A stretch of 64,000 nt of DNA from the NCBI RefSeq assembly GCF_007671675.1, contig NZ_VCGW01000001.1, forward strand, positions 310,001-374,000. The letters are read 5' to 3'. The position numbers and the translations under genes were made by a program. Position 1 is the stretch's first letter, and the number at the start of each line of letters is the position of its first letter. Under the pieces are notes generated by a model. That model did not search any database. It worked only from the letters and a program-made list of their open reading frames with translations, and was not told the origin of the DNA. The DNA comes from Marinobacter maritimus (GTDB lineage: Bacteria > Pseudomonadota > Gammaproteobacteria > Pseudomonadales > Oleiphilaceae). Shown here piece after piece: positions 31,683-49,808 of the stretch.

Positions 31683-32459
31683 ATGCAAGGCATGCACTAC
31701 AGCTCAATACTTCCGGAAGTGATCAAAGTGGCGGATGAAGCCAGCACTAAGGTTCTCCACATCTACCAGTCTGATTTCAAGGTGAGCTACAAGGAAGACG
31801 AATCACCCATCACCGCTGCGGATATTGCGAGCCACGAGACCATTGTAAAAGGTCTGCGTAACATAAGCCGGGATATTCCGATTCTTTCGGAAGAGGGCGC
31901 CCAGGCCTCTTGGGAGGAGCGTAAACTCTGGCGCCGGTTCTGGCTGGTTGATCCGATTGATGGCACTAAAGAGTTCACTCAACGCTCTGGCGAGTTCACG
32001 GTAAATATCGCTCTGATTGAAGGTGGTGAGCCGGTCATGGGCGTTGTTACAGCCCCGGCCTTAAAGGAAGCATTTTGGGGTATTAAAGGTGAGGGCGCTC
32101 ACAAGCGTGACCGAACCGGGCGAATTCATCGCATCCGCGTAACAGAACCCCAGGCAACCAAGCGCGTTGTCGCCAGCAAAAATCATATGAATGATGAGAC
32201 TCGCACCTTTATTAAAGCTCTCGGAGCCCACAAAACGATTCAGGCCGGCAGTTCCCTCAAATTCTGCCGGATAGCAGAAGGCCACGCCGATATTTATCCG
32301 CGCATGGGGCCGACCAGTGAGTGGGACACCGCTGCAGCCCATGCTGTGTTGCTTGCAGCTGGTGGAAATGTGCACACTTTGGAGGGGCAGCCTTTGCAAT
32401 ACGGCAAAGAAGATGTGCTAAACCCGTATTTCATCGCTGCAGGAAACTGGTATTTTTGA
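31683..32459 (+). CDS. cysQ: 3'(2'),5'-bisphosphate nucleotidase CysQ
   Basis: 258 residues from ATG 31683; ATG 31692 (MHYSSILPE) is equally possible and closer to the E. coli length (246). Inositol-monophosphatase fold with metal-binding motifs SPITAADIASHE, LSEEGAQ, DPIDGTKEFTQRSGEFTVNIA and WDTAAAHAVLLAAGG. CysQ hydrolyses PAP to AMP, recycling the by-product of sulfate assimilation. It lies divergent from the MBL gene, just before rfaH; no functional link with the polysaccharide cluster is evident. Confidence 0.94.
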   Translation: MQGMHYSSILPEVIKVADEASTKVLHIYQSDFKVSYKEDESPITAADIASHETIVKGLRNISRDIPILSEEGAQASWEERKLWRRFWLVDPIDGTKEFTQRSGEFTVNIALIEGGEPVMGVVTAPALKEAFWGIKGEGAHKRDRTGRIHRIRVTEPQATKRVVASKNHMNDETRTFIKALGAHKTIQAGSSLKFCRIAEGHADIYPRMGPTSEWDTAAAHAVLLAAGGNVHTLEGQPLQYGKEDVLNPYFIAAGNWYF

Positions 32460-32505
32460 TGCGTTTTTAAGATCACGGCTCATCATTAACTAACACCGGA
32501 ATCGT

Positions 32506-32985
32506 ATGACTTGGTACGCACTCCAGCACAAGCCCGCTCAAGGCGATCGGGCACTTACCCATTTGCAGAATCAGGATATCGCCTGTTTCTACCCGAAAAT
32601 CCAGGTAGAAAAAATCAAAGCTGGGAAGCGCATCCAGAGGCTTGAGCCGCTTTTTCCTGGTTACTTGTTCGTCAACCTGGATCAGACGGACCCCTCATGG
32701 GCAAAGCTTCGTTCCACTCGCGGTGTAATTCGTGTTGTCAGTTTCGCGAACAAGCCTGCCGCAATAGCAGATGACGTGATTCGGCACGTCAAAGACAGTC
32801 TTGATGCTGTTACACAGCAGGGTGGGCTCAGGTCTGGCGAGGCGGTTCAGCTAGGCGAAGGCCCCTTTGAGGGCCTTAATGCTGTTTTTCAGGCGTATGA
32901 TGGTGAAGAGCGGGCCGTTGTGCTTATTAGCTTTATGCAGAAACAACAGTCTGTGAAGATCCCGATTTCGGCAATAAAGCGATAG
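32506..32985 (+). CDS. rfaH: Transcription antitermination protein RfaH (NusG paralogue)
   Basis: 159 residues (E. coli RfaH 162). The N-terminal NGN domain opens MTWYALQHKPAQGDRALTHL and contains the FPGYLFVNLD and STRGVIRVV segments; the C-terminal KOW part has AVQLGEGPFEGLNAVFQAYD then LISFMQKQQSVKIPISAIKR. RfaH boards RNA polymerase paused at ops and suppresses polarity in long virulence and LPS operons. It sits at the head of the polysaccharide cluster, and an exact ops sequence occurs 1.2 kb downstream (34155-34166), so it probably works in cis on this operon. Confidence 0.92.
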   Translation: MTWYALQHKPAQGDRALTHLQNQDIACFYPKIQVEKIKAGKRIQRLEPLFPGYLFVNLDQTDPSWAKLRSTRGVIRVVSFANKPAAIADDVIRHVKDSLDAVTQQGGLRSGEAVQLGEGPFEGLNAVFQAYDGEERAVVLISFMQKQQSVKIPISAIKR

Positions 32986-33122
32986 ACATCGAGAATTACT
33001 TACCGGCCGGTAACGGAAATGGTCAGGCATACACTGTAAACTGTACACCGTTCCTACACTGGATCCGATTTCGCCAGATTATACATTCCGATTCCAAGTT
33101 TTGTTTTCCGGGCTGCAGTCTA

Positions 33123-33902
33123 ATGAATGACACGCAAAACACGTCCTCTGGCGTTCAACGGCCAGATTATTCCGATGAGATCAGTCTGGTTGATCTTGTT
33201 GCGACGTTTATCCGCAGGCGCCGGGTTTTTTATGTGGTCTTTATTGCCGTTGTCCTAGGTGGCTTAGCCTACGCAATGTGGATGCCAGACAAGTATGAGT
33301 ATGCAAGCCTTATTCAGATAGCTCAAAAAGACAGCAAAGAGTTTGTTCAGCCGCCAGAGACAATAATGGCAACGTTGGAGAGCCGCTGGTTGCCAGAAAT
33401 ACAAACCACGTATCGCGAAGAGCATGGCAGAAAACTCCCTTTTGATGTGTCTTTCGATAACCCCGAAAGCACGGGGCTCATTCGTTTCAGCAGTAGCGCG
33501 ATCAAGGGAGATGAAAAAGCCGTTGGCGCTGCTCATAGTGCCTTGATCAGCCGCGTGAAGGGGCATCAAGAAATTTTGATTGAGGGAGAGCGTCAGGGCC
33601 TTAAGCGGCAGATAGGGTCGCTGGACAGTGCCATTGAGACACTGAAGGGTGAGAAGGACGCCGGTGAAGCGATAGCTGGCGCCATAGAGAGGCGCTCAAG
33701 GCTTGAGGGTAAACTTGAAAGTCTACAGGGAATTCAGGTGCTTGTTACCAGCCGCCAAAGTGCTGAGAAAATTGCCCCAAAGCGTAGCTTGATTGTTGTG
33801 CTATCAATATTGCTCGGTAGCATGTTGGGTGTTTTTGTGGCGTTTATGAGTGAGTTTGCGGCCACGGTGAGAAACCAAGTGGCAACGGATAGCGCTGGCT
33901 GA
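33123..33902 (+). CDS. Wzz/chain-length determinant family protein (first copy)
   Basis: 259 residues. The two Wzz transmembrane helices are at about 38-54 (VFYVVFIAVVLGGLAYAMW) and 220-245 (SLIVVLSILLGSMLGVFVAF), the latter preceded by the Pro-containing KIAPKRS motif. A periplasmic coiled-coil region lies between. Wzz proteins set the chain length of Wzy-made polymers. The periplasmic part is short. A second Wzz family protein follows at 38244, so two chain regulators are encoded. Confidence 0.87.
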   Translation: MNDTQNTSSGVQRPDYSDEISLVDLVATFIRRRRVFYVVFIAVVLGGLAYAMWMPDKYEYASLIQIAQKDSKEFVQPPETIMATLESRWLPEIQTTYREEHGRKLPFDVSFDNPESTGLIRFSSSAIKGDEKAVGAAHSALISRVKGHQEILIEGERQGLKRQIGSLDSAIETLKGEKDAGEAIAGAIERRSRLEGKLESLQGIQVLVTSRQSAEKIAPKRSLIVVLSILLGSMLGVFVAFMSEFAATVRNQVATDSAG

Positions 33903-33991
33903 TTGCTGTTCGAGTTAGGTGACTTTCTGACTCTTTGACAACCTTTGACGCTCTCGCAGCGGTTTGGTTTGTATGTCCGGCTTTTTGTCAC

Positions 33992-34019
33992 TTGTTTGTG
34001 CAATACGATGCCGTAGAAT
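33992..34019 (+). promoter_or_regulatory. Possible sigma-70 promoter for the capsule operon
   Basis: TTGTTT (33992-33997) and TAGAAT (34014-34019) with a 16-base spacer, about 100 bases before the Wzi start and 130 bases before the ops element. The spacing would put ops in the early transcribed region, as RfaH needs. Match quality is moderate. Confidence 0.3.
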
Positions 34020-34122
34020 CGGCACGCTTCAGACATGGAACATTCACACACTGACAGGGATGCAGTTGGGAGCGTGTTGTCCCCTCCTCGTTTTTTCCTG
34101 TTATTGCTGGCAATTTATTTCT

Positions 34123-35613
34123 ATGACCTTAAAACACTGGGCCTTGGTCGGTGGGGCGGTAGCGTGCCTGACCAGCACTTTAGCAACGGCGGCACCCTGG
34201 CTTGAGCCGGGTGATGTGCGCGCTCGGTTTGCGGTACAGAAGCTTGCGGATCGCGGCCAACTTCAGCGGCCGGTTACAAGCTGGCCCATAATGTGGGGTT
34301 CCATAACCAATGGCCTGAATGAGGCGGAGGGCACACCTGATGCCGTCACTGGGCTGGCTCGTAACTACCTTGAGTTCGAACGTGCCCGGCAGGCATCCCC
34401 TGGTTTTCGTGCGGAATTTGAAGTCGCGGGCACAAATGAAGTGGCCATGGTTCAGGGCTTTGATCGCGGGCCAATGGCTGAAGCGACAGCAAAACTTGAC
34501 GTGCAATGGCAGGGGCAAAACTGGGCGTTCGGCCTGAGCCCGGCTTATGCCCACAACCCTGATGACGATGAAAGCGCCCGCTTTGATGGCTCCTATCTCG
34601 CAGCCACTGCAGGTAACTGGGTGTTTGGCGTTGGCGCTATCGATCGCTGGTGGGGCCCCGGCTGGCAATCCAGCCTTATCTTGTCCAATAACGCCCGGCC
34701 ATTGCCCTCCGTGTGGCTGAATCGCAAAGACGCCTCTGCGCCTGAGAGTCGCTGGTTGAGCTGGATTGGCCCTTGGCAATTCACAGTGTTTGCCGGGCAG
34801 TATGAAAAAGAACGTAAGGTGCCGGAAGCCAAGCTGATAGGCATGCGCCTGAATCTTCGCCCGCTGGATGGTTTGGAGCTGGGCTTCTCCCGGGCAATTA
34901 TGCTCGGGGGTGAGGGCCGGCCTGAGGGCGCATCTACGATCTGGAATGCGTTGATAGGCAAGGATAACGGTCAGCTGGAAGAAAACGATCCGGGTAATCA
35001 ACTTGCCAGTATAGATGCACGCTATGGTTTCGCCATAGGCGAGCAGTCGATGGGCGTTTATGGCCAGATGATGGGTGAAGACGAAGCCGGTGCCTTCCCT
35101 GCGCGCAAATCCTGGCTTCTGGGTACCGATTGGACGAGTCAGCTGTTTAGCGGCGATCAACAATGGTTTATAGAGTACGCCAACACGTTCGCTGATGACT
35201 TCCTGGGTGACGCCATGCCCAACATCACCTACGACCATTCCCGTTACAACAGCGGCTATCGCTATTACGGCCGCACCATGGGCGCCAGCTTCAGTGGCGA
35301 TGCAGAAGCCATTACGCTAGGCGGCTTTCATTTTTTCGACGACGGACGCAATCTTTCGGCCAGCTTGAGCTTTGTTGAGTTCAACAAAGACGGGATAAGC
35401 CGAACACCGGTGATCGATAAAGACATCAAGTTGATGGTCCCCGCGGAAAATGCCAAACAAGTAATCGCAAAAGTCGGCTATGGCACCGAGTTGCTTAATG
35501 GCTGGCTGGACCTCAGCGCGCAGTTTGCAGATAAAAAGCTTGAGTTGGTCAATCCGGCAGACAATGAAGCAGGCCAGTGGTCTGTTGGCGCCAGTTGGCG
35601 ATACCGTTTTTAA
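34123..35613 (+). CDS. wzi: Capsule assembly protein Wzi family
   Basis: 496 residues from ATG 34123 (E. coli Wzi 479). The start is set by the signal peptide MTLKHWALVGGAVACLTSTL, cut after ATA before APWLEPGD. The mature N-terminus (DVRARFAVQKLADRGQLQRP, WPIMWGSI) and DRWWGPGWQSSLILSNNARP are typical of the family, and the terminal GASWRYRF ends the outer-membrane barrel. Wzi anchors capsular polysaccharide at the cell surface. The ribosome site is weak. The ops element lies within codons 11-15, so the same bases serve as RfaH recruitment site and signal peptide. Confidence 0.87.
   Translation: MTLKHWALVGGAVACLTSTLATAAPWLEPGDVRARFAVQKLADRGQLQRPVTSWPIMWGSITNGLNEAEGTPDAVTGLARNYLEFERARQASPGFRAEFEVAGTNEVAMVQGFDRGPMAEATAKLDVQWQGQNWAFGLSPAYAHNPDDDESARFDGSYLAATAGNWVFGVGAIDRWWGPGWQSSLILSNNARPLPSVWLNRKDASAPESRWLSWIGPWQFTVFAGQYEKERKVPEAKLIGMRLNLRPLDGLELGFSRAIMLGGEGRPEGASTIWNALIGKDNGQLEENDPGNQLASIDARYGFAIGEQSMGVYGQMMGEDEAGAFPARKSWLLGTDWTSQLFSGDQQWFIEYANTFADDFLGDAMPNITYDHSRYNSGYRYYGRTMGASFSGDAEAITLGGFHFFDDGRNLSASLSFVEFNKDGISRTPVIDKDIKLMVPAENAKQVIAKVGYGTELLNGWLDLSAQFADKKLELVNPADNEAGQWSVGASWRYRF
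34153..34166 (+). promoter_or_regulatory. ops (RfaH recruitment) element / JUMPstart 3' half
   Basis: GGGGCGGTAGCGTG at 34153-34166 contains the complete 12-nt ops sequence GGCGGTAGCGTG known from E. coli rfa, rfb and capsule operons, and also matches the two preceding G residues of JUMPstart. It lies 31 bases downstream of the wzi start codon rather than in the leader. With a cis-encoded RfaH 1.2 kb upstream, it is very likely functional. Confidence 0.85.
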
Positions 35614-35673
35614 CACGTTTCATCTAATTGATAACTCCAAACTCTTTTCCAAAACATATACTGGATACCCGCT

Positions 35674-38244
35674 GTGAACTTTAAGCGTTTTCTTCTTTCT
35701 TTATCACTATTAATGCCTTTGTGTGTTTCCGCTCAATCAATAACACCCTCTCAGATCCAGCAGTTTAAATCCCTCCCCCAAGCCCAGCAGGAAGCTTTGG
35801 CGCGGCAGTACGGCGTGGATCTGGATCAGATTCAGGGGAGTGCTTCGCAAGACCACCCCAAAGTGAATCAACAGATCTCGGTCGTCGAGCCGCTGGAGAA
35901 AGACACCAGCCAAGGCGAAGACAAGAAAGACAGCAAACCTGCTAAAGAAGAGCAAGCGTTCAGCGAAAAGAACCATGGCCTGAAGCCGTTTGGCTACGAG
36001 TTGTTTGAAGGTAAGCCCAGCACATTTGCTCCAGTGACCGAAATACCGGTTCCTGCCAACTATACACTGGGCCCTGGTGACGAATTGAAAGTTCAGCTTT
36101 GGGGCAACGAAAACCGCCAGCTATCGCTGGTTGTTTCCCGCGATGGCACCATCGAGATGCCTGAAAGAGGGCCGGTTAATGTCGCCGGCATGAGCTTTCA
36201 GCAAATCAGAGAAGAAATTAGCAGACTGGTCGCAGAACAGTACATTGGCGTAAAAGCGGCGGTTTCTTTGGGCGAGCTGCGTAGTATGCGGGTATTTGTG
36301 CTGGGTGAAGCGCGCACGCCGGGATCGTTCAGTGTTAGTTCGCTCTCTACCATAACCAACGCACTTTATGTATCTGGCGGCATTCGCCACACAGGTTCTT
36401 TGCGCAACGTACAATTAAAACGCAACGGGAAGGTTGTAAGCACGCTTGATCTTTACGACCTGCTGCTTAAAGGTGACACCAGCGGTGATGTGCGCCTTCA
36501 ACCCGGAGACGCAGTATTTATTCCGGCTGTAGGTCCTCGTGTTGGAATAGATGGAGAAGTGTATCGCCCAGCGCTGTATGAAATTAAAAACTCCACCACG
36601 CTGGACGATTTGGTAAATCTGGCTGGAGGCCTCACCTCTCAAGCCTATCCGCAAATAACGCGAATCGAACGTACGAACCAGGATTTCCTGCGGGTAATAG
36701 CGGAAGCCGATCTCACCAATAACCAGGGCAAGCGCGCTAAGGTAAAGTCTGGTGACCGAGTTTCGGTTGCATCTATCGCGGATGTGACAGGCCAGTATGT
36801 CGAAATAACGGGTGCTGCCACTCGTGAAGGCAAATTCGCCTGGGTGCCGGGAATGCGGGTGAGCTCCATAATCCGCAACTTGGACGCAGATCTGTTGCCA
36901 ATAGCCGATACCAACTTCGCAGCCGTCGTCAGAACAAATCCCGATACCCAGCAGGTTTCCGTACTGAGCCTGGAGCTTAAGAATGCAGTAAGCAATCCCG
37001 GTGGGTCAGTCGATCTGATCATGCAGGAAAAAGACCAGTTGCTGGTGTTTGCGGATGAGGGTAAGGGCGATTTCAAACAAAGCTTCCCTGAAAACCCGGA
37101 GAAGGGCAATGGGGGCGATGTGACGCAAGAAGGCGTTGAGGATGAAGCAGACACAAAGCGCTTTAGCCGCGATACGCTATTTGATCCTGTGGTAAAGCGC
37201 TTAAAAGCCCAAGCCACGCCGTCAACACCGCAACAAACCATGACCATCAGTGGACCGGTTCGTTACCCCGGTGAGTACCCCCTGCCAGCAACCGGTAAAG
37301 TGAAAGATGCCATTGTTATGGCCGGAGGGTTAACGGATTCAGCCCTTATGTTAGACGCAGAGTTAGCCCGCCGGAGTTTGAACAGCAATGGGGTAGAACA
37401 AACTCAGCTGCGCACAATCAGCTTGGCTGATGCAATGAATGATCAAATAGATATACAGCTGCAAAGCCGTGATCGCCTGATGGTGAGATCCATACCTCTG
37501 TTCGGTGCCACACGCACCATTAAACTGGAAGGTGAAGTGGTTTATCCAGGCGAGTACACGTTCAGCGATGGCGAGACCCTGGTGGATGTTCTCACACGTG
37601 CTGGAGGGCTCACCAGCAATGCATTCCCTCGTGGCGCCGTATTTACCCGCAAAAAACTGCGTGAACTGGAAGCTCAGCGTCTGCTGGAAGCTGAAAAGCG
37701 ACTGCAGGGTGACCTGCTAGGTGTCCGGCTGGAAGGCGATAACTTTGGTGGCCAGAGTGCACAGCGCGTAGAACAGGTTCAGAGATTGCTAGACGATGTG
37801 CAAACTAGCCGACCAGTAGGGCGCATGGTGATTGAACTTGCCTCTGTGCTTGAAGATAGCAGCTACCAGTCTATTCGCCTCCAGGATGGTGACACGTTGA
37901 ACGTTCCCATTATCCCTCAGGCCGTGAGCGTATTCGGCGAAGTGCAATTCCCCACAAGCCATCTGCACTCAGAAGGTTTAACGGTAGACGACTATCTCGA
38001 GCGTTCCGGCGGGCCCACCCGTCAGGCGGACGAGAGCCGGGTGTATGTCGTGAAAGCCGACGGCTCGGTAATGTTGCCTGAGAAAAGCGCGTGGTTTGGT
38101 GGTCGCAGCCAGCAGTTGCAGCCGGGTGATACGGTCATCATGCCGATCGATGTAGACCGCCTGAACCAGCTGGAGCTTTGGACGAACGTAAGCCAGATCG
38201 TTTATCAGATGGCTCTAGGTGCAGCTGCAGTGGGTAACCTCTGA
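35674..38244 (+). CDS. Wza/OtnA-like polysaccharide export protein with multiple SLBB domains
   Basis: 856 residues, much longer than E. coli Wza (379) and like the OtnA/GfcE-type large exporters. GTG start at 35674 followed by a signal peptide ending VSA; no lipobox Cys. The poly-export domain is at about 127-205 (NYTLGPGDELKVQLWGNENR, SRDGTIEMPERGPVNVAGM). Successive SLBB-type units follow (VFVLGEARTPGSFSVSS, IDGEVYRPALYEI, ISGPVRYPGEYPLPATG, LEGEVVYPGEYTFSDGETL, VFGEVQFPTSHLH). It would form the outer-membrane/periplasmic conduit for the polymer. No Wzc kinase gene is present nearby. Confidence 0.9.
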   Translation: MNFKRFLLSLSLLMPLCVSAQSITPSQIQQFKSLPQAQQEALARQYGVDLDQIQGSASQDHPKVNQQISVVEPLEKDTSQGEDKKDSKPAKEEQAFSEKNHGLKPFGYELFEGKPSTFAPVTEIPVPANYTLGPGDELKVQLWGNENRQLSLVVSRDGTIEMPERGPVNVAGMSFQQIREEISRLVAEQYIGVKAAVSLGELRSMRVFVLGEARTPGSFSVSSLSTITNALYVSGGIRHTGSLRNVQLKRNGKVVSTLDLYDLLLKGDTSGDVRLQPGDAVFIPAVGPRVGIDGEVYRPALYEIKNSTTLDDLVNLAGGLTSQAYPQITRIERTNQDFLRVIAEADLTNNQGKRAKVKSGDRVSVASIADVTGQYVEITGAATREGKFAWVPGMRVSSIIRNLDADLLPIADTNFAAVVRTNPDTQQVSVLSLELKNAVSNPGGSVDLIMQEKDQLLVFADEGKGDFKQSFPENPEKGNGGDVTQEGVEDEADTKRFSRDTLFDPVVKRLKAQATPSTPQQTMTISGPVRYPGEYPLPATGKVKDAIVMAGGLTDSALMLDAELARRSLNSNGVEQTQLRTISLADAMNDQIDIQLQSRDRLMVRSIPLFGATRTIKLEGEVVYPGEYTFSDGETLVDVLTRAGGLTSNAFPRGAVFTRKKLRELEAQRLLEAEKRLQGDLLGVRLEGDNFGGQSAQRVEQVQRLLDDVQTSRPVGRMVIELASVLEDSSYQSIRLQDGDTLNVPIIPQAVSVFGEVQFPTSHLHSEGLTVDDYLERSGGPTRQADESRVYVVKADGSVMLPEKSAWFGGRSQQLQPGDTVIMPIDVDRLNQLELWTNVSQIVYQMALGAAAVGNL

Positions 38245-39197
38245 TGAATCAGCGCGTTGAGTTCGAGCAGGCAAGTCAGTACGCAGATGATGAAATAGAT
38301 CTTCGCCAGATTTTCGCCACATTGTGGTCAGGGAAGTGGGTTGTTATAGCGTTTACAATCTTATTCGCTGCGGGTGGCGTGGCGTTTGCGCTTATGAAGC
38401 CGGATATCTATCAGGCAAGCGTACTGGTGGCGCCCGCTAATGATGAAGGTGGTGTTAAAGGCCTGAGTGGGCAGTTGGGAGGCTTGGCCAGCTTGGCGGG
38501 TATCAATCTGGGAGGCGGCGGTTCTAATCAAACTGTTATCGCCAAAGAAGTACTGCAGTCCCGTGCATTTCTGACTGATTTTATACGTCGGCATCAGTTG
38601 GCCGTCCCGCTGAAAGCTGTTAATGGTTGGAACAAAGAAAAGCAGCGGTGGCAGTACAACCGGGAAGTCTATAATCCGGAGACGGAAGAGTGGTTGAAGG
38701 ACGACAAAGGCGAGAGCTTAGCACCTACCGACTGGGATCTGGTGAAAACATTTAAGGGGGATCACCTGAGTGTGAGCGAGAGCAAAGATACTGGCATGCT
38801 CACAATCAGTATCAAAAGCCTGTCCCCCATAGCAGCGAAAGAATGGGCTGGGCTATTGGTAGCTGATATCAACGAACATATGCGTCGAGAAGATGTGGGT
38901 ACTTCTGAGGCACGTATCGCCTATCTCGAGGGCAAGCTGGAAGAAACCAGTATTGCCGGAATGCAGCAAGTCTTTTACCAGCTCATTGAAAGCGAAACCC
39001 GCACGGTAATGCTGGCCAACGCGCAACCGGAATACGTCTTCAAAACTGTAGATCCGGCTGTAGCGCCCCAAGAGAAAAGTGAACCCAAGCGCGCTTTGAT
39101 CGTCGTGTTGGCTGTAATGCTAGGCGGCATGCTGGGTGTATTTGTTGTCTTCATACGTGCTTTCATAAAATCCGATAAATTTGAAGAAAAATTATGA
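38244..39197 (+). CDS. Wzz/chain-length determinant family protein (second copy)
   Basis: 317 residues. N-terminal [20 protein letters not shown] leads into the first membrane helix (about 33-50), followed by the GYxAS-like region ([14 protein letters not shown]) and a Gly-rich [16 protein letters not shown]. The second helix near the C-terminus is preceded by [20 protein letters not shown], the proline-rich Wzz motif. It overlaps the Wza stop (TGATGA) and the RfbB start (ATGA), so it is in the same operon. There is no cytoplasmic kinase domain, so polymer length is set without a Wzc-type BY-kinase. Confidence 0.92.
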
Positions 39198-40345
39198 AAC
39201 TCCTGATCACCGGCGGTGCCGGCTTCATCGGCTCCGCCGTAATTCGTCACATCCTCACCAAGACCAGTGATGAAGTGGTCAATCTCGACAAGCTCACTTA
39301 CGCTGGCAACCTCGAAAGCTTGGCTGAAGTAAGTGATAGCGAACGCTACAGCTTCGAGCAAGTAGACATCTGCAATCGAGCAGAAGTAGATCGCGTGCTG
39401 GCCCAACACCAGCCAGATGCAATAATGCACTTGGCCGCCGAAAGCCACGTAGACCGCTCCATAGATGGCCCCGCGGAATTTATCGAAACCAATATAGTAG
39501 GAACCTACACCCTGCTGGAAGCCACCCGCCAGTACTGGCAGGCCATGGAAGCCGAGAAAAAAGCCAACTTCCGCTTCCACCACATAAGCACAGACGAAGT
39601 CTACGGCGACCTCCCGCACCCAAACCAGTTCCCCTCTCCCCCGGCGGGAGAGGGGCTAGGGGAGAGGGGGGAGCGTGTATTCCCGATCACGGGAGAGGGG
39701 CCAGGGGAGAGGGGGGAATCTCTGCCTCTCTTCACAGAAGAGACGGCCTATGCCCCAAGCAGCCCCTATAGCGCCAGCAAAGCCAGCTCAGACCACCTGG
39801 TACGAGCCTGGCATCGTACCTACGGCCTGCCTGTACTCGTCACAAACTGCAGCAACAACTACGGCCCCTTCCACTTCCCGGAAAAGCTCGTCCCGTTGAT
39901 GATCCTCAACGCCCTGGAAGGCAAGCCGCTCCCGGTTTACGGCAAAGGTGACCAGATTCGCGATTGGCTCTACGTAGAAGACCACGCCCGCGCGCTCTAC
40001 AAAGTCGTCAAAGCAGGCAAGCCCGGCGAAACCTACAATATTGGCGGCCACAACGAAAAACAGAACATCGAAGTGGTGCACACCCTGTGCGACATCCTCC
40101 AGGAACTGCGACCACAGGAAAAAAATTACCGCGATCTCATTACCACTGTAAAAGACCGCCCAGGCCACGACAGGCGCTACGCCATAGACGCTAGCAAAAT
40201 CCAGAAAGAACTCGGCTGGGTGCCAGAAGAAACCTTCGCAACCGGCATCCGCAAAACCGTAAATTGGTATCTGGCTAATCTGGATTGGTGTCAGCGCGTG
40301 CAGGACGGCAGTTATCAGCGCGAAAGATTGGGAGCAACAGCATGA
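39194..40345 (+). CDS. rfbB: dTDP-glucose 4,6-dehydratase with an in-frame repeat insertion
   Basis: 383 residues (usual about 355-361). The NAD motif is [10 protein letters not shown]; the active site is STDEVYGDL then [15 protein letters not shown]; the tail is [20 protein letters not shown]. It converts dTDP-glucose to dTDP-4-keto-6-deoxyglucose. Between GDLPHP and LPLFTEE there are 33 residues, where E. coli RfbB has 8, with a duplicated GEGxGERGE motif; these are coded by a GC-rich repeat at 39631-39717. The rest of the enzyme is intact and in frame, so activity is likely kept. rfbC and rfbD (rhamnose branch) are absent; wecE lies downstream. Confidence 0.93.
39631..39717 (+). repeat. 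GC-rich repeat inserted within rfbB
   Basis: Starts with a hairpin CCCCTCTCCC (39631-39640) and GGGAGAGGGG (39646-39655). The G-rich arm then repeats: the 27-base unit beginning at 39646 recurs at 39691 with one mismatch (T/C), a 45-base period, which is 15 codons. The same CCCCTCTCCC/GGGAGAGGGG palindrome lies between pilC and pilD (21310-21342). Translated here as repeated GEGLGERGE / GEGPGERGE. Confidence 0.88.
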
Positions 40346-41223
40346 AAGGCATCATCCTCGCAGGCGGCTCCGGCACTCGCCTATACCCCATAACACAGGG
40401 CACCTCCAAACAACTGCTGCCTGTATACGACAAACCTATGATCTACTACCCGCTCTCTGTACTCATGCTGGCGGGCATCCGGGATATCCTCATCATTACC
40501 ACTCCGGAAGATTTGGCTGGCTTCAAGCGTGCCTTGGGTGACGGCGAGCAGTTTGGCGTTAACCTCAGCTATGAGGTGCAGCCAACGCCCGATGGCTTGG
40601 CGCAGGCCTTCATTATTGGCGAAGAGTTTATTGGTGAGGATAGCGTTTGTCTGGTACTCGGCGACAATATCTTCTATGGGCAGGGTTTTGTTCCCAAACT
40701 CCACGAAGCCGTGGAGCAGGTTGAAGAGCGAGGTGGAGCAACTGTATTTGGGTATCAGGTTAAAGACCCGGAGCGTTTTGGTGTAGTAGCGTTCGATAAC
40801 GCTCATAAAGCCATCTCGATCGAAGAAAAGCCATCCAAACCAAAATCGCACTTTGCAGTCACTGGTCTGTACTTCTACGACAACAAAGTAGTCGAGATCG
40901 CAAAAACTGTTCAGCCATCAAGACGTGGTGAGCTGGAAATTACAGACGTGAATCGAGCGTATCTGGAGCAGGGCGAACTGAACGTAAACCTTCTGGGCCG
41001 GGGCTTTGCCTGGCTGGACACAGGTACCCACGAAAGTTTGCTGGAAGCCGCACAGTTTGTAGAAACCATTGAAAAGCGCCAAGGCTACAAAATCGCCTGC
41101 CTGGAAGAAATTGGTTACAACCAGGGCTGGTTAAGCAGACAGAAAGTAGAGCAACAAGCGCAGGAATTACGCAAAAACAGCTATGGCGAATATCTCAGCG
41201 CCTTGGTCTGTGGCGAGCTCTGA
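40342..41223 (+). CDS. rfbA: Glucose-1-phosphate thymidylyltransferase
   Basis: 293 residues from ATG 40342, which overlaps the rfbB stop (ATGA). The start motif is [20 protein letters not shown], then [27 protein letters not shown] and [17 protein letters not shown], all typical of RmlA/RffH. It makes dTDP-glucose from dTTP and glucose-1-phosphate, feeding RfbB. With wecE nearby and no rhamnose genes, its flux here goes to an amino sugar, dTDP-Fuc4N. Confidence 0.96.
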
Positions 41224-41234
41224 AAGGTAATTTT

Positions 41235-42279
41235 GTGATTTTACACGTAGCAGGGCTTGATAAGTTCATCCCACCATTTGTCGAATTCGCTAAGGAAGAA
41301 TTTCAGGAAGAGAAGCATCAATTCTGGTTTACGGGTTCTGTTGAAAAATACCCATTAGATCAGAGTGAAGCCGTGTATGTGTGGAAGCGGCACTTTGGCC
41401 AAGCTTGCGGGCGACGCAAAACTGGTTAAACAGCTCCACAGCGCCCGAAAGGTTATGCTCCATGGACTATTCAACATCCGGGTTGTTCTCATTCTGGCGC
41501 TTTGTCTGTGGGTACTGGCTAAGTGCCACTGGGTAATCTAGGGCGGAGATCTTTTCCAATATAAAAAAACGACTAAAGCCCTGCGATCTCGCATTAGAGA
41601 AGCTCTGCGGAGTTTTGTTATCCGCAGAGTCGGACATTTGGTCACCTATATCGATGGTGACGTGAAACTGGCCCGCCAATGGTACGGGGCGAAAGGTGCT
41701 CACCACGAATGCATCATGTAACTGAGCAATGTCGTCGATTCCAAAACTACAGGGGAGGCAGCTCCCAACACTGGCCATGAGGGTTTGAAAATACTCCTCG
41801 GTAACTCTGCCGATCCAAGAAACAACCACATCGAAGCGCTCGAACGCCTGTTGCCCTTTAAAGAAATCAGGGCATCAAAATATTTGTCCTTGTCTTATGG
41901 CGACCAAAACATGCAAAAAAGTAATCAGCCGCGGTGAAGAGTGGTTTGGAGATAAATTTGTGCCCATGACGGACTTTATGTCGTTTGAGCAATACTTGGA
42001 GGTTTTTAAAAGCCTTGATGTCGCGATCTTCAACCATCGACGACAGCAGGCCATGGGACACACCATTATGCTTTTTAGTATCGGGAAAACGGTTTTATGC
42101 GGAGCGAAGTGAACTAATGGCATTGTCTGTATAGCTTGGGAATTAAGCTGAACGACGTTGATAATATAGCGCTCTCCCGGGTAGCGCCCCATGAAGCCGA
42201 AGGGAATGCTCGTGTAGTTCGCCCATATTTTTCAAGGGCAACGCGGGTTGAGCAACTTTCAGATATTTCCGAGGGATAG
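41235..42279 (+). pseudogene. Broken GT56 / WecF-like TDP-Fuc4NAc transferase
   Basis: Four partial frames together read as one WecF-type protein of about 345 residues. Frame A from GTG 41235 (ILHVAGLDKFIPPF) shifts near 41390 into frame B (KLVKQLHSARKVMLHGLFN). There a TAG at 41539-41541 replaces the Trp of the conserved WVIWGGDLFQY motif; the frame goes on to HLVTYIDGDVKLARQWYGAK. A poly-A run near 41914-41920 shifts to frame C (KKVISRGEEWFGDKFVPMTD, FNHRRQQAMGHTIMLF), and a last shift or stop near 42113 precedes the end at 42277. WecF adds Fuc4NAc to the ECA lipid intermediate. The gene is clearly inactivated. Family call is from the recognisable motifs. Confidence 0.75.
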
Positions 42280-42280
42280 A

Positions 42281-42844
42281 ATGGCTTATTTAACCGAAGC
42301 GCAGCTACAGGCGATGGGTTTTAAGACTGTAGGTGGAAATGTAAAAGTGAGCGACAAGGCGAGCATCTATAATCCTGAAGTGATTGAGCTTGGTGATTAT
42401 TCACGTATTGACGACTTCTGTGTTGTATCCGGAAAGGTTTCAATTGGACGATATTGTCATATCACCCCAATGTGTTTAGTTGCTGGGGGCTCTCCCGGAG
42501 TCACGCTCTCGGATTTTTGTACTCTGGCCTATGGAGTACAAGTTTTTGCGCAGTCTGATGATTACAGCGGCAGTACCATGGTGAATTCACTAATTCCTGC
42601 CAAATTCAAAAATGAGTATTTCGCTGAGGTGCTTATAGAGAGGCAGGTAATTATCGGAGCAGGCTCAATCATTTTTCCAGGTGTTACAATCCGACAAGGG
42701 TGCTCGGTTGGCGCCATGACGCTATTGAATAAAAGCACCCAGCCCTGGGGAATCTACGCAGGCAAACCTGCCCGCAGAATTAAGGATCGAAAACAAGATT
42801 TACTCGAACTGGAAGCGCAATTTCTCAAAGAGCAGCAAGAATGA
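42281..42844 (+). CDS. Left-handed beta-helix (hexapeptide) acetyltransferase
   Basis: 187 residues from ATG 42281, which has a GAGG ribosome site; upstream codons belong to the pseudogene. Hexapeptide-like turns appear from about residue 45 (IELGDYSRIDDFCVVSGKVS), followed by VIIGAGSIIFPGVTIRQGC, typical of the galactoside-acetyltransferase class, and PWGIYAGKPARRIKDR at the end. It overlaps wecE by 4 bases. In enterobacteria the Fuc4N N-acetyltransferase (WecD/RffC) is a GNAT enzyme; here this LbH protein takes that genomic place, so it may N-acetylate dTDP-Fuc4N as FdtC/QdtC-type enzymes do on related sugars. O-acetylation of the polymer is the alternative. Confidence 0.85.
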   Translation: MAYLTEAQLQAMGFKTVGGNVKVSDKASIYNPEVIELGDYSRIDDFCVVSGKVSIGRYCHITPMCLVAGGSPGVTLSDFCTLAYGVQVFAQSDDYSGSTMVNSLIPAKFKNEYFAEVLIERQVIIGAGSIIFPGVTIRQGCSVGAMTLLNKSTQPWGIYAGKPARRIKDRKQDLLELEAQFLKEQQE

Positions 42845-43971
42845 TCCCGTTTAACATGCCACCCTGCACGGGGGCCGAAGAGCAGTACATCAAACAGGCG
42901 CTAAAAAGCAACAAGCTCTCCGGCGATGGCCCTTTCGGCAAAAGGTGCCAGAACTGGTTCGAAAAAAACCTACCAGCCAAGAAAACCCTGCTGACTCCTT
43001 CTTGTACGGCCGCTCTGGAATTGGCGGCGATCCTAATAGACATTAAGCCGGGCGATGAGGTCATCATGCCGAGCTACACCTTCGTGAGTACAGCAAATGC
43101 CTTCGTACTCCGTGGTGCAAAGATTGTGTTCGTGGATATCCGCCCAGATACCATGAATATTGATGAAAGCCTGATCGAGGATGCAATCACTCCTAGCACC
43201 CGAGCTATTGTGCCCGTGCACTACGCTGGCGTTGCCTGCGAGATGGACACCATCATGGCCATTGCCGAGCGCCACAACCTTTACGTGGTTGAAGATGCAG
43301 CTCAAGGCATGATGAGCAGCTACAAAGGGCGTGCGCTGGGAACCATCGGCCATCTGGGAGCTTTCAGCTTCCACGAAACCAAGAACTACACCAGTGGTGG
43401 TGAAGGTGGCTTGCTGATCATCAACGACGAACAGTTTGCGGAGCGTGCCGAGGTCATTCGCGAGAAAGGCACCAACCGGAGTCAGTTCTTCCGGGGCATG
43501 GTCGATAAGTACCAATGGGTGGATATCGGCAGCAGCTACCTGCCAAGCGAATTGCAGGCCGCTTACCTGTGGGCACAGCTGGAGCATGCAACCGAAATCA
43601 ATGAGTCGCGCCTGAACGCCTGGCAATATTACTGGCACCACATACAGCTGCTTGCGGAACAGGGGCGCATTGAACTTGCCACCATTCCAAACGGCTGCAC
43701 GCACAACGGCCACATGTTTTACCTAAAAATCTCCGGGCTGAAGGAGCGTACCGCTTTGCTGGAACACCTTAAGAGCAAGGGTATTCACGCGGTATTTCAT
43801 TATGTGCCGTTGCATACCGCCAAAGCAGGTGCCGCTTTCGGACGATTCCACGGGGAAGATCGTTTCACTACCAGTGAAAGCGAGCGGTTGGTTAGGTTGC
43901 CGATGTGGTTTGGCCTACCCAAAGATGATCAAATGCGCCTGATATCGGCTATAGAAGAGTTCTACGCGTGA
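42841..43971 (+). CDS. wecE: dTDP-4-amino-4,6-dideoxygalactose transaminase
   Basis: 376 residues, collinear with E. coli WecE (RffA). Landmarks are the start MIPFNMPP, LTPSCTAALELAA, GDEVIMPSYTFVSTANAFVL, VVEDAAQGMMSSYKGRALG and the PLP lysine in GAFSFHETKNYTSGGEGG. It transfers an amino group from glutamate to dTDP-4-keto-6-deoxyglucose, giving dTDP-Fuc4N, the precursor of Fuc4NAc. Start and stop overlap the neighbours by 4 bases on each side, so it lies in a tightly coupled operon. Confidence 0.95.
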   Translation: MIPFNMPPCTGAEEQYIKQALKSNKLSGDGPFGKRCQNWFEKNLPAKKTLLTPSCTAALELAAILIDIKPGDEVIMPSYTFVSTANAFVLRGAKIVFVDIRPDTMNIDESLIEDAITPSTRAIVPVHYAGVACEMDTIMAIAERHNLYVVEDAAQGMMSSYKGRALGTIGHLGAFSFHETKNYTSGGEGGLLIINDEQFAERAEVIREKGTNRSQFFRGMVDKYQWVDIGSSYLPSELQAAYLWAQLEHATEINESRLNAWQYYWHHIQLLAEQGRIELATIPNGCTHNGHMFYLKISGLKERTALLEHLKSKGIHAVFHYVPLHTAKAGAAFGRFHGEDRFTTSESERLVRLPMWFGLPKDDQMRLISAIEEFYA

Positions 43972-45383
43972 GATTTCGTAAGATTACTGCCTTCTCGATA
44001 GGGCCAGTTGGTGGCGCTGCATTAGGCTTAATAACTCTACCTTTCCTTACATGGTTTTTTTCGGCTGAAGATATTGGCCGATTTACTATGCTTCAAGTGT
44101 CTCTCGGTTTAAGCACAAGTTTATTTAGCTTGGCTATGCATCAGGCTTATGTAAGGGAGTATCATGAAGTGGCTGATAGGGCCGCGCTGTTTAAAGCAGC
44201 CATTTTCCCAAGCATATCTATTTTAACAGTTTTAGTATTATTATCGCTGATTTTGCCGCTCTCAATTTCGAAAATTTTGTTTGAAGTTGAATCTGTTTTG
44301 CTTGAAGCGCTTTTGTTTATAGGCGGTTATTCTGTGCTGATAATAAATTTCTTAGCACACGTGCTTAGAATGGAGGAGCGTGGGCTAGCATTCTCAGCGA
44401 CACAAGTTTCACCAAAGCTATTTTTCATAATATGCATAAGCGCTATTTTTATTCTAAGTATAGAGTCAAGCTTTCAAATTCTGATCATGATGAATACCTT
44501 TGCGGTATTCGGATCCTTATGTATATTTGCTTTTCTAACTCGAAAAACATGGATGGCAGCAATATCTAGACCATTAAATGTGGGTTTGATTAAAAAAATG
44601 CTTTCGTTTAGCTTGCCACTTGTTGCTGGTGGCCTTGCTTACTGGGGGCTGACAACAATGGATAGATTCTTTTTAAGAGCTTTATCCGGGTTTGAACAGC
44701 TTGGCGTGTATGCAATCTCAGTGTCGCTGGCAGCAGCAGTTTCAGTCTTATCAACTATTTTCTCAAATTTATGGCATCCGACTGTGTATAGGTGGATAAA
44801 AGAAGGTGTCGAGCCTGCTCGCATACAGGCAGTAATTGAAAATATGTTTATTGTAGTTGCCATAACCTGGTCTCTAGTTGGGTTACTATCGTGGGTAGTC
44901 CCATACTTTTTGCCGCCTCGATACCAAGCCGTTGAGTATTTGATTGTTGCCTGTGTAGCTATGCCTCTATTCTACATGCTTTCAGAAACGACTGTAGTTG
45001 GAATTGGTATAACGCGACGTACGAGCTTCTCCATGATTTCCTCTATAGCTGCCGCCTTAGTTAATGCTGTTTTAAATTTTTTGCTCATACCAAAATATGG
45101 TGCAGCAGGTGCAGCACTTGCTACTCTTTTCTCGTTCTTCGTGTTTTTTTTGATTAGAACGGAATCGAGCGCATGGCTTTGGGTTTCGTTGCCCCGAATG
45201 AAAATGTACTTTTTGATAACTGCTTATCTATTTGCTACCGCCACCATGGTAGTAACAGAAGCAAGAATCAAGAATTTTAATGCAATTTGGGTGGGGCTAA
45301 TACTGTTAACTGCTTTTATGTATTACTCTCGATTGTTTCAGTCTTTCTGGTTTATAAAAAACTATTTGAGTAAAGAGGTTTGA
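43968..45383 (+). CDS. wzx: Wzx-like polysaccharide flippase
   Basis: 471 residues with about 12-14 membrane segments spread over the whole length. The N-terminal ISIGPVGGAALGLITLPFLT-like helix (here FSIGPVGGAALGLITLPFLT) is typical of the MATE/MOP Wzx family. It flips the lipid-linked repeat unit to the periplasm. The GTG start at 43968 overlaps the wecE stop. Base composition drops sharply here to AT-rich, marking the strain-specific part of the cluster and probable acquisition from another source. Confidence 0.88.
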   Translation: MRFRKITAFSIGPVGGAALGLITLPFLTWFFSAEDIGRFTMLQVSLGLSTSLFSLAMHQAYVREYHEVADRAALFKAAIFPSISILTVLVLLSLILPLSISKILFEVESVLLEALLFIGGYSVLIINFLAHVLRMEERGLAFSATQVSPKLFFIICISAIFILSIESSFQILIMMNTFAVFGSLCIFAFLTRKTWMAAISRPLNVGLIKKMLSFSLPLVAGGLAYWGLTTMDRFFLRALSGFEQLGVYAISVSLAAAVSVLSTIFSNLWHPTVYRWIKEGVEPARIQAVIENMFIVVAITWSLVGLLSWVVPYFLPPRYQAVEYLIVACVAMPLFYMLSETTVVGIGITRRTSFSMISSIAAALVNAVLNFLLIPKYGAAGAALATLFSFFVFFLIRTESSAWLWVSLPRMKMYFLITAYLFATATMVVTEARIKNFNAIWVGLILLTAFMYYSRLFQSFWFIKNYLSKEV

Positions 45384-46652
45384 ATGTTATTTATCAATGG
45401 CGCTCTAGGATTAGGCGGGCTTGAAACCTTTTATGTGAGAATGGCAAAGGAGCGCGCAAAGCAAGGCTTGCCAACATCGCTTTTGTTGTTGTCAAAGCCA
45501 GAAGCAAGTGATGAAAATCTATTAGAAGAAATGAAAAAATATGCGAAAGTGGTTTTCACTCAAGATATCTTTTCGATTAGCGCCGGTTTTTCACGTAGAT
45601 TTCCTCTGCTTTCACCAGTAAAAAAAAATGCTCTTTCAAATCTATTTGAAAATGTAAATCAAATTCATGTCTCTGATGGAATGCTTGGCCTTGTAGGAGA
45701 AAGGTTTAATAGAATTTCTGGTAAAAATATTCCTATCACGATTGGCTTTTATCATTATATACAATATCTATGGGGTGGCGAAAAGGTTCCAAGTTTTGAA
45801 AAAACAAATCGAAGGTTTGTATTCAAGTTTCTCCCTAAAGAAGCTCTGTTGATGTTTTCTGATGGTGTCAAAGACCTTTACGAAAAAAATAAATCGATGA
45901 ATTTAGAGGGCGCCCAAGTATTTAGATTAGGAGTGGTTGATAAAAAAAAGGTTCGGGTAAGTGGAAGTTTGAAACGCCCTTTGAAAATTATAGCTATAGG
46001 TCGCTTAGTTGATTTTAAAACCTACAACCTTTACATGCTTGAAGTTGTAAGCGAGCTAAAGACAAAAGGTATATTTGTCAAGCTTGATATTTTCGGGGAT
46101 GGCCCATTAAAACAGCATATAATAACGAAAATTAATCAGTTAGAATTAAACGATTCTGTAGCATTGAAGGGTAGTCTTGAATATTCCAAATTTGACGAAA
46201 CCGTTTCTCACTATGATTTATTTGTAGGTAGTGGGACGGCAATTATACAGGCAGCATCATTAGGTTTGCCATCAATTATTGGTGTCGAAAACGTGATTCA
46301 TTCCAAAACTTATGGTTATTTTTCAGATTTTTACAAGTATGAATATAACCTTAAAGGTTTAAGCTTTCCTTTATTGTCTGTGGAAAAAATCATTGAAAAC
46401 TATTTCTTTATGGATGAAGGTAAACGACTGGAGTTGAAAAAGTCGCACATCATCGCCAGTGAAGTGTTCACCAATGAGGCATGCCAGAAGGGAATGGATG
46501 CGTTAAAAAACATTAGAATGCCAGTGCAAGGTTTTAAATATAATCGATGGTCCTATGAACTATCTAGATTGATCGATAGAGTTAACTTAAGACTTAATAA
46601 AAACCATCCAAGGTTGAGGAAGTTTGAGGATTTTAGAAAGTTACATGAATGA
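45384..46652 (+). CDS. Glycosyltransferase family 4-like protein
   Basis: 422 residues. The N-terminus GALGLGGLETFYVRMAKERA is a GT4-type donor/acceptor start (GGxE). The C-terminal Rossmann half has IAIGRLVDFKTYNLYMLEVV, LDIFGDGPLKQHI and FVGSGTAIIQAASLGLPSII, which stands in place of the usual ExxxxxxxE segment. It adds a sugar to the lipid-linked unit in the cytoplasm; donor and linkage cannot be read. The ATG abuts the wzx stop with no gap. AT-rich coding like its neighbours. Confidence 0.85.
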   Translation: MLFINGALGLGGLETFYVRMAKERAKQGLPTSLLLLSKPEASDENLLEEMKKYAKVVFTQDIFSISAGFSRRFPLLSPVKKNALSNLFENVNQIHVSDGMLGLVGERFNRISGKNIPITIGFYHYIQYLWGGEKVPSFEKTNRRFVFKFLPKEALLMFSDGVKDLYEKNKSMNLEGAQVFRLGVVDKKKVRVSGSLKRPLKIIAIGRLVDFKTYNLYMLEVVSELKTKGIFVKLDIFGDGPLKQHIITKINQLELNDSVALKGSLEYSKFDETVSHYDLFVGSGTAIIQAASLGLPSIIGVENVIHSKTYGYFSDFYKYEYNLKGLSFPLLSVEKIIENYFFMDEGKRLELKKSHIIASEVFTNEACQKGMDALKNIRMPVQGFKYNRWSYELSRLIDRVNLRLNKNHPRLRKFEDFRKLHE

Positions 46653-46881
46653 CTGTGAATGCGATTAATAGATTGTGTCCAAAAATACTGGGAGCAATTT
46701 GGATTAAGGTGCTCAAAGAGTTTTGGATGGCGAAAGTTTAAAGCCTTAATCAAGCGTTTGGCATCAAGGGAGCCTGAATCTGGTTTGTGGCACTCATGGC
46801 AAAGCGGGCTTTCAGGCCCGACACTGAATTAACGGCAAACCGGATATTTATCACGCGCTTCTCAACGGTTTAAATTAGCCC
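46653..46881. other. Gap between glycosyltransferase and wzy
   Basis: 229 bases without a credible gene. The composition changes from AT-rich to a GC-richer patch at about 46780-46840, as if a foreign fragment were left by recombination. A short palindrome (AAGCGGGCTTTCAGGCCCG) lies at about 46803-46821. Nothing else identified. Confidence 0.4.
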
Positions 46882-47973
46882 ATGATCCATTTTACACTTT
46901 ACTTCTTTGTCTTGTTATTATCATGGATTGCCTTAGTAAGTAACATAGACAATAAAAAAGTTCTCAACACTTGTCTGGCCGTGTCGTTTTTTCTTGTCCT
47001 CTATCTAGTCATTGGGTTTCGTGTGGACTCAATTGATTATGTGAGCTATAAGTCTATATTTGAGAAAGTTAATTTTTCCCAGTTTTCGATACCGATATTC
47101 AATTCGAATGAGGGGTCAAGCGGCAGAGAGTTTTTGTTCGCATCTTCTGTTTCATTGTTTAAGCTTCTTAATCTTAGTTTTGAGTCATTCATTGCATTTA
47201 TTGCTTTTCTATCGGTTTTTATAAAGTTCAATATTTTTTGGCGCAATTCTCCTTATTTCTGGCTTTCAGTTCTGATATACCTTTCGTTTTCGTATTTTAA
47301 AGATCTTGGCCAGATACGAAGTGCGTTATCTGCGACCATTCTTGTATTTTCTTTTAATCAGATAGTTTCTCGTAAATTTCACTATTACATTATTTATGTA
47401 ATAATAGCGGCAGGCATTCAGATATTTTTGATCTTTGCCGTCATATTGTATGTTTTCCATTGGTATTTTCATCGTTATTTAAAATTGTTTCTGTTGTTTT
47501 TTAGTCTTTTTTTGCCAGATTTGATTTTTTATATATATGAATATTCGGCTGATTTTATTCGTGCATTAAACCCTTTTATTTTTTATAAAATTAATGGTTA
47601 TATGGCGGTCCAACAAGATATAAACGTATTTGGTTTAGGAAATATTTTTCGAGTCTCCGTCGTAGCCGCCATGATATTCATGGGGGGCTGGTTAAATTTT
47701 TCCAAGTCTTCGATTGTATCTGTAAGCCTCTCTTCCGTTTCCTTAGGACTGATTTTTTATAATTGTTTTAGCTTTATTCCAGCTGTCGCAGAGCGATCTA
47801 TTGATGTATTTGTTTTTTTGCCTGCGTGTCTCTTGTTTCCTATCTTTGTTTCTAAGATGGCAGGGGGCGTTCAGAAGCAAATTGTCTTCATGCTCGTTGT
47901 GCTTTATTGTTTGGCATTTTTTATCGGAGGTGTTTCTTCGGCAGGAGAGTATCGAAATTTGCTTTTAGTGTAG
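46882..47973 (+). CDS. wzy: Wzy-like polysaccharide polymerase (EpsG family)
   Basis: 363 residues, extremely hydrophobic and Phe-rich, about 10 membrane segments. The early motif YLVIGFRVDSIDYVSYKSIF matches the EpsG/Wzy pattern, where a short loop with R and D..Y follows the second helix. The middle reads FKDLGQIRSALSATILVFSF, also EpsG-like. It would polymerise repeat units in the periplasm, with length set by the two Wzz proteins. Strongly AT-rich, with a gap on both sides, so it may have been swapped as a cassette. Confidence 0.82.
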   Translation: MIHFTLYFFVLLLSWIALVSNIDNKKVLNTCLAVSFFLVLYLVIGFRVDSIDYVSYKSIFEKVNFSQFSIPIFNSNEGSSGREFLFASSVSLFKLLNLSFESFIAFIAFLSVFIKFNIFWRNSPYFWLSVLIYLSFSYFKDLGQIRSALSATILVFSFNQIVSRKFHYYIIYVIIAAGIQIFLIFAVILYVFHWYFHRYLKLFLLFFSLFLPDLIFYIYEYSADFIRALNPFIFYKINGYMAVQQDINVFGLGNIFRVSVVAAMIFMGGWLNFSKSSIVSVSLSSVSLGLIFYNCFSFIPAVAERSIDVFVFLPACLLFPIFVSKMAGGVQKQIVFMLVVLYCLAFFIGGVSSAGEYRNLLLV

Positions 47974-49652: not shown

Positions 49653-49808
49653 TAATAATTGCTTCTGCTCATTATTCTATATGTAGAAGGGTATTGAAAA
49701 AATCGTTGAGAGTTAAATTTACTATTTCAGTACTTGATCGTCTACGATGGTTGGTAAAACCCACGTTTAAAGCTTCTTTTAAAGTGTTTGCATCGTAAAA
49801 AAGGTGTT

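Follow-up and report, generated by a model that had tools for sequence, protein, structure and literature searches.

A JUMPstart-like block with an exact ops element forms the predicted translated start of wzi in Marinobacter

An exact copy of the Escherichia coli ops element lies within the signal-peptide codons of the capsule assembly gene wzi in Marinobacter maritimus, as the initial annotation of this DNA had noted, and comparison across the genus confirms that observation in a stronger form than first described. In the 64,000-nucleotide stretch that we analyzed (here, the window), the 12-mer GGCGGTAGCGTG occurs once, with zero mismatches, at 34155 to 34166 on the forward strand. It coincides with codons 11 to 15 (G-A-V-A-C) of the ORF that begins at the ATG at 34123, and lies 32 nt downstream of that start codon; U11 of ops, the pause position in E. 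coli, falls at 34165. We consider it likely that this is a working ops/JUMPstart element that is translated.

An exact ops element inside wzi

On the sense strand, the element sits where a long operon begins. The cluster opens with rfaH (32506 to 32985, +), which encodes a 159-aa NusG-paralogue antiterminator scoring above the cut-off of the TIGR01955 equivalog model (157.9 versus 144.5 bits). The gene ends 1.17 kb before ops, in agreement with the earlier placement of an RfaH gene about 1.2 kb upstream in the same cluster. A gene for a small Wzz-like chain-length protein of 259 aa (33123 to 33902, +; PF02706 Wzz, 3.7e-10) is followed by wzi itself (34123 to 35613, +), the product of which, a capsule assembly outer-membrane protein, matches PF14052 with an E value of 1.3e-89 and 301 bits against a cut-off of 30.1. 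Judged by eye, its signal peptide spans about 34123 to 34191. The remaining co-directional polysaccharide cluster (35674 to 51086, +), in which part of the ORFs were scanned with Pfam, encodes an export protein, a Wzz, a dTDP-glucose dehydratase, a nucleotidyltransferase, an aminotransferase, Polysacc_synt and EpsG proteins, glycosyltransferases, and a UDP-sugar dehydrogenase. An IS21-type element (IstB ATPase and transposase; 51619 to 53636, −) stands opposed to the cluster and may end the RfaH-dependent transcript.

The window reads GGGGCGGTAGCGTG at 34153 to 34166. The two extra G residues, which had been assigned to JUMPstart, also precede the exact 12-mer in the rfbB, wza, and waaQ leaders of E. 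coli MG1655, likewise at the heads of polysaccharide operons. In MG1655, ops is untranslated, and the distance from it to the annotated start codon downstream is 87 nt for rfbB, 190 nt for wza, and 95 nt for waaQ, whereas in Marinobacter it lies inside the coding sequence, 32 nt past the start codon, and rfaH adjoins. In all 66 ops-bearing wzi copies described below, ops comes after the start codon and not, as in a leader, ahead of it in untranslated sequence. As a separate observation, the MG1655 rfbB leader (L202, ~13149) has an ATG 30 nt upstream of ops that is in frame through the element and opens a 15-codon ORF, which may be due to chance.

The frequency of the 12-mer alone proves nothing, because the M. 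maritimus genome contains two perfect copies and the reversed-pattern control also returns two. We therefore rejected significance based on the count, and the original argument from the rarity of a chance match was in this respect weaker than stated; that the match is not a chance one is supported by its position and by its conservation, which settled the matter. The 16-mer GTGGGGCGGTAGCGTG is present in 98 of the 124 Marinobacter genomes, with 0 control hits. The second perfect copy in the M. maritimus genome (L002; G000:C8:118742-118753) is antisense within an rnhB-like ORF and is probably a chance match.

Conservation of the block beyond the protein sequence

We compared 67 wzi copies from 66 genomes of the genus, one of which (G103) supplied two. 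Among the 74 genomes with a wzi match, seven with wzi displaced from ops and one at a contig end (G090) were left out, as was a second partial wzi of G091 (L135) with one ops mismatch; the wzi genes of G028, G035, and G084 are partial or broken, and their 5' ends were kept. With matched Wzi proteins down to about 45% identity, ops is in frame and exactly 32 nt past an NTG start codon (65 ATG, 1 TTG) in 66 of the 67 copies. The sole copy that has lost ops belongs to G093 (L114, 2940 to 3075) and is not among the 66; its codons have drifted, an SD-like AAGGA precedes its ATG, and in this single case the wzi frame is open over 1-496 despite the loss.

Codons 11 to 14 read GGG GCG GTA GCG in all 66 ops-bearing copies, and residues G11 to C15 are constant. 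Over wzi codons 20 to 195, GGG, GCG, and GTA make up fractions of 0.16, 0.20, and 0.20 of the codons for their amino acids, and the top codon of other conserved wzi columns reaches 28 to 79%. Substitutions were counted on a tree that was built from wzi without its first 20 codons and spans 23.7 substitutions per site. The fourfold-degenerate third bases of codons 10 to 14 underwent 0 changes, compared with 12 to 25 (median, 22) at 19 other conserved fourfold sites. All 64 copies with His at position 5 use CAC for it (0 changes); the 18 twofold sites outside codons 1 to 16 underwent 3 to 17 changes, and 17 of them underwent 10 to 17. Outside ops the block is less strict, with third-base changes at Lys4 (8), Val9 (3), and Cys15 (5). 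The translated JUMPstart-like block MTLKHWALVGGAVACL (34123 to 34171, +) is conserved over about 49 nt, from the A of the ATG (+1) to about +49, with positions 4, 8, 19, and 21 varying most.

This pattern of substitution indicates that the block is under selection as DNA or RNA beyond its protein meaning. Conservation in relatives with the same RfaH, synonymous positions included, had been proposed as the check on the element, and the 66 wzi copies bear it out. The accompanying suggestion that a pause signal and translation fall on identical bases is supported as a matter of predicted anatomy. The initial annotation had not remarked on the extent of the block beyond ops, its use in front of yjbH-like genes and short upstream ORFs, the lack of a clear Shine-Dalgarno sequence at the start codon, or the order of start codon and ops, which is reversed from that of the E. 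coli loci compared.

RfaH and its co-occurrence with the element

The best solved relative of the window RfaH is E. coli RfaH (5ond), and the equivalents of K10, R16, E48, T72, R73, I93, F130, R138, and L142 are kept. All of the named autoinhibition residues (E48, I93, F130, L142, and R138, the last of which we take to belong to this group) are thus present. At the ops contacts, K10, T72, and R73 are kept and H65, T66, T68, and N70 are replaced by S, W, K, and R; H65, T66, T68, N70, and T72 are further ops-contacting positions of E. coli RfaH. E48, I93, and F130 (PMC7593976) and L142 (PMC13015549) have been named as residues of interdomain autoinhibition, and K10 and R73 as ops-contacting residues of E. 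coli RfaH (PMC7593976). In an AlphaFold2 model of the window RfaH, residues 117 to 159 have pLDDT values of <50, and the C-terminal domain is too poor for a reading of autoinhibition or of the switch from alpha hairpin to beta barrel.

The NusG paralogues UpxY and LoaP are encoded within the operon that they control. The regulator gene adjoins its target cluster in those systems (PMC7593976), as it does in the window. The window regulator differs from UpxY and LoaP in being RfaH by family model, in keeping the autoinhibition residues, and in having an exact ops target.

Of the 124 Marinobacter genomes, 97 contain both the 16-mer and an RfaH homologue (E up to 1e-15) and 24 contain neither; RfaH alone is found in two (G060 and G093) and the element alone in one (G033), a genome that is 62% complete. 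Five genomes in this tally were identified by elimination between two 124-genome listings. The joint presence or absence in 121 of 124 genomes corresponds to a Fisher value of 3e-22, which is nominal because the genomes are related.

The block in front of other genes and in other genera

The 16-mer occurs in 45 further contexts, which we classified by eye, partly on the presence of a start codon. Two of them (L255 and L256) have no recognizable operon, and one (L259) is the duplicate locus of G070. In that genome, a single contig (G070:C1) carries rfaH and wzi twice each, with identical scores and about 20 kb apart across its ends, which is probably an assembly end overlap.

The block forms the start of YjbH-like proteins in 11 loci; PF06082 (YjbH) was found in both of those scanned, and the other nine were recognized by their shared LAFPGYSG start. 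At another 11 loci it forms the start of short upstream ORFs (uORFs), seven of which precede a sugar-transferase-like gene (PF02397 in the one locus scanned, L120). The uORF frame is open through ops at nine of these 11 loci, the other two carrying a stop at codon 6, and at six of 11 the stop codon of the uORF overlaps the start of the following gene or comes immediately after it (L121 by eye). Since the block stands in front of several unrelated kinds of gene, it has, within the genus at least, been relocated or copied.

A leader form with no start codon at that place is found at 20 loci, 11 of which have an in-frame stop in codons 1 to 15; the count of 0 start codons in 20 is a description and not a test, because the start codon helped to define the class. 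The next start lies 35 to 59 nt after ops in 17 of the 20, which is the classical leader arrangement. One member of the class (L234) is a coding-class copy broken by a single inserted base. Coding and leader copies occur together in three genomes (G047, G063, and G052).

In a genome from another genus of the same family (G120), a yjbH-like gene, identified by sequence, is preceded by the leader form; the gene starts 32 nt past ops and encodes a signal peptide of its own, an arrangement that suggests an ancestral leader form. One from a further genus of the family (G134) has the coding form in wzi (L340, wzi by sequence). A survey of 84,980 species genomes found the start-codon form in 65 stretches, 61 of them titled Marinobacter. 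Outside the genus, no start codon 32 nt before ops was found in L142-L146, L172-L201, or L345-L354, which are loci from part of the places; the exceptions are L340, in the same family, and L330, from Proteobacteria bacterium 005FR1, both in wzi. Three loci with non-Marinobacter titles and Marinobacter-like genes (L270, L298, and L302) carry the start codon 32 nt before ops. In the genome of L340, a further locus (L339) has a TTG 32 nt before ops that opens a 79-codon frame, probably by chance.

Separately, certain order-level genomes contain many exact copies of GGGCGGTAGCGTG on both strands, with zero controls (G166, 21 copies; G317, 6; G338, 5; L187-L189), possibly a dispersed repeat or many RfaH-like targets.

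A predicted hairpin before ops

A predicted RNA hairpin (CACUG/CGGUG with a 9-nt loop; 34135 to 34153, +) lies directly before GGGCGGUAGCGUG, its base 12 nt upstream of the expected paused RNA 3' end. When the loop was allowed to vary, the full stem was found in 27 of 31 distinct wzi sequences, 4 of 5 yjbH-like sequences, 8 of 9 uORF sequences, and 12 of 20 leader sequences, compared with means of 3.2, 0.4, 0.9, and 2.3, respectively, after shuffling of the upstream part; the loci from other genera gave 1 of 4 versus 0.46 expected. In some leader copies the CACTG arm is one base closer. Covariation at fixed pairs lends the predicted stem weak support: across 64 distinct sequences, 83.8% of cells pair versus a shuffle mean of 81.1%, a value reached by 1 of 500 shuffles, and for the leader and other-genus loci the observed value is reached by 183 of 1,000.

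A stem-loop conserved among JUMPstart elements has been reported (PMC2864571). The Marinobacter element shares with the JUMPstart RNA family RF01707 a stem-loop followed by GGGCGGUAGCGUG and differs from it in the sequence of the stem and in the 5' part. It also shares with all three MG1655 JUMPstarts a 5-bp RNA hairpin with its base at an equal offset to ops. The RF01707 model, with its gathering score of 35 bits, found no match between 33900 and 34400 of the window at E values up to 10 and none in 10 relatives including the same genome (150 candidates per genome scored), whereas the three E. coli elements score 55 to 60 bits. Because the model finds no match, we regard the Marinobacter element as either a diverged relative or a look-alike of JUMPstart RNA.

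The start codon and the region upstream

In 66 wzi copies the block encodes the first part of the Wzi signal peptide, and at 11 loci it does so for the YjbH-like proteins. Its anatomy points to translation, because Wzi would otherwise lack the beginning of its signal peptide. For 34 of the 66 wzi copies, reading upstream in frame reaches a stop codon before any further NTG; in the window copy, a TTG lies 159 nt upstream.

No clear Shine-Dalgarno (SD) sequence precedes the wzi start codon (ATG, 34123 to 34125, +; NTG in all 66 ops-bearing copies), which has an anti-SD energy of −1.5 in the window. Mean energies for the coding class are −0.93 for wzi (n = 66), −0.19 for yjbH-like genes (n = 11), and −1.01 for uORFs (n = 11), compared with −4.38 for starts after leader ops (n = 20), −4.48 for rfaH starts (n = 31), and −1.73 for control windows (n = 536). 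SD 4-mers stand before 2 of the 88 starts in the coding class and before 3 of the 20 that follow leader ops, and they occur in 67 of 990 control windows (6.8%); given how rare they are in the background and at the leader-class starts, the figure of 2 of 88 is weak evidence of SD avoidance. By energy, three of the 66 wzi copies match the SD-like level of G093. Where wzi is displaced from ops, its start could be placed at five of seven loci; these genes encode other, ordinary-looking signal peptides and also have no clear SD (mean of the five, −1.7).

Alignment of the 66 upstream regions revealed a conserved promoter-like box (33985 to 34019, +), with TTGTCA at 33985 and TAGAAT at 34014 to 34019. 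The pattern TTGTCA-N15..26-TA[GAT]A[AT]T is found in 34 of 66 wzi upstream regions and 0 of 66 reversed controls, with the end of the −10 element a median of 136 nt before ops; it is also found at 3 of 11 yjbH-like, 5 of 11 uORF, and 0 of 20 leader loci. The box therefore places ops within the first ~150 nt of the putative transcript. A standard sigma-70 scan of 32380 to 35800 returned no site, with 2.5 expected in shuffled sequences. The same alignment shows a conserved 5' leader box, CTGACAGGGATGCAGTTGGG / CTGACAGGGATNCAGTTGGG (34051 to 34070, +), between the promoter-like box and the start codon. We also observed conserved TGTCA-type direct repeats 11 to 12 bp apart before the TAGAAT box, a combination that looks to us like a response-regulator (PhoB/OmpR-type) activated promoter.

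Discussion

We propose that a JUMPstart-like element consisting of a hairpin and ops, probably an untranslated leader in its ancestral form, became the translated 5' end of the first gene in RfaH-controlled polysaccharide operons of Marinobacter and a near relative. Read from the sequence, the anatomy appears to require translation of the block, ties it to rfaH, and has no clear SD; the transcription start, pausing, RfaH loading, RfaH-assisted initiation, and ribosome-assisted escape are what we infer from it. Transcription would begin about 100 nt before wzi, and polymerase would pause at ops U11 (34165), where RfaH from the neighboring gene would load and render polymerase resistant to termination over the long cluster. 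In E. coli, RfaH is recruited at ops (PMC11001881 and PMC7593976). At the pause, the wzi AUG would lie outside the exit channel, 42 nt behind the RNA 3' end; this spacing falls between the distances of 28 nt and 46 nt, taken from the ribosomal P site to the active site of polymerase, that have been reported for collided and coupled complexes, respectively (PMC11711091).

Because the AUG has no clear SD, the most likely scheme is that the KOW domain of activated RfaH would hold a ribosomal subunit on it while polymerase waits. E. coli RfaH is reported to recruit ribosomes to mRNAs without ribosome-binding sites (PMC13015549). The ribosome would then trail polymerase and, after about five codons, could push it from the long-lived ops complex; in E. 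coli, polymerase held by RfaH backtracks and needs help to escape (PMC11001881). The same 16 codons would double as the beginning of the signal peptide. RfaH-assisted initiation, taken alone, is a close call on which we lean slightly against: the AUG without SD may reflect the background, and the 32-nt spacing is no independent proof of a ribosome distance, because leader copies keep a near-equal hairpin-to-ops layout and the DNA element alone may fix it. Other points that weigh against the proposal are the four replaced ops-contacting residues of RfaH, the third-base changes of the block outside ops, and the recovery of the promoter-like box at only 34 of 66 wzi loci.

A serious alternative, though one to which we grant less than an even chance, is that ops/JUMPstart works for antitermination only and that translation is a by-product of an SD-independent start (S1, A/U-rich leader) without RfaH. 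An ATG would have arisen at the edge of a leader element, and its frame would have been captured as a signal peptide. Such an origin accords with the leader copies that have normal downstream starts, found in Marinobacter as well as in further genera of its family (L335, L341, and L342), with the T- and C-rich 60 nt before the wzi ATG, and with the displaced wzi copies, which equally lack a clear SD. It fits less well with the uORFs, most of which stay open through ops and of which six in 11 stop at or just past the next ATG, as if passage of a ribosome were needed. The SD-like AAGGA of the ops-less wzi in G093 and the scarcity of SD 4-mers at coding-class starts also speak against it, yet the three wzi copies that match G093 by energy temper this point.

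That the near-identity of the block stems from a small mobile or recombining cassette that spread recently, rather than from long-term selection, is improbable: such a spread would explain why unrelated kinds of gene carry the block, but the flanks diverge freely while the block is fixed across the depth of the wzi tree, and its retention agrees with rfaH. Still less probable is an RNA attenuator or a nascent-peptide stall sequence unrelated to RfaH. The predicted hairpin and the conserved peptide could suit such a device, but against it stand the exact ops 12-mer, the joint presence or joint absence with rfaH across 121 of 124 genomes, and the leader copies, which cannot act through this peptide. 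Selection on the signal peptide with an incidental ops match accounts for the invariance of G11 to C15 but is refuted by the frozen fourfold sites of codons 10 to 14, and the retention of the block in leaders without a start codon, together with the drift of residues and codons in G093, where wzi stays open without ops, leaves it with next to no credit.

Within the reading of the block as a working ops/JUMPstart that is translated, a bolder version treats the start codon, the hairpin, and ops as a single portable launch cassette with initiation as a checkpoint. We advance it tentatively, since we judge it somewhat doubtful. If it is true, polymerase held at ops by RfaH would present an AUG without SD at the spacing of a coupled ribosome-polymerase complex, and its release into the operon would have to await a ribosome that has started and pushed. 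Wzi, YjbH-like proteins, and stop-start-coupled uORFs would each have acquired the cassette, and passage of the ribosome through ops would be what is selected.

Among the literature matches listed, a coverage that mostly excludes subscription papers, we found no report of a translated ops. The parts and the principle are known; the arrangement is new. The model for E. coli has RfaH load before the ribosome, which must then reach a start codon farther downstream; PMC11001881 describes a need for ribosome capture in the interval from ops to a start codon no more than 100 nt beyond it. Marinobacter presents the opposite order: the AUG precedes ops and should already have emerged from polymerase by the time polymerase arrives at ops. 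Ordinary leader ops elements in the same genus, and sometimes in the same genome, provide an internal control; with this control and the reversed order, ribosome capture and ribosome-assisted escape become directly testable. The translated block of Marinobacter also offers a clear example of regulatory sequence that, by its predicted anatomy, doubles as the code for a signal peptide.
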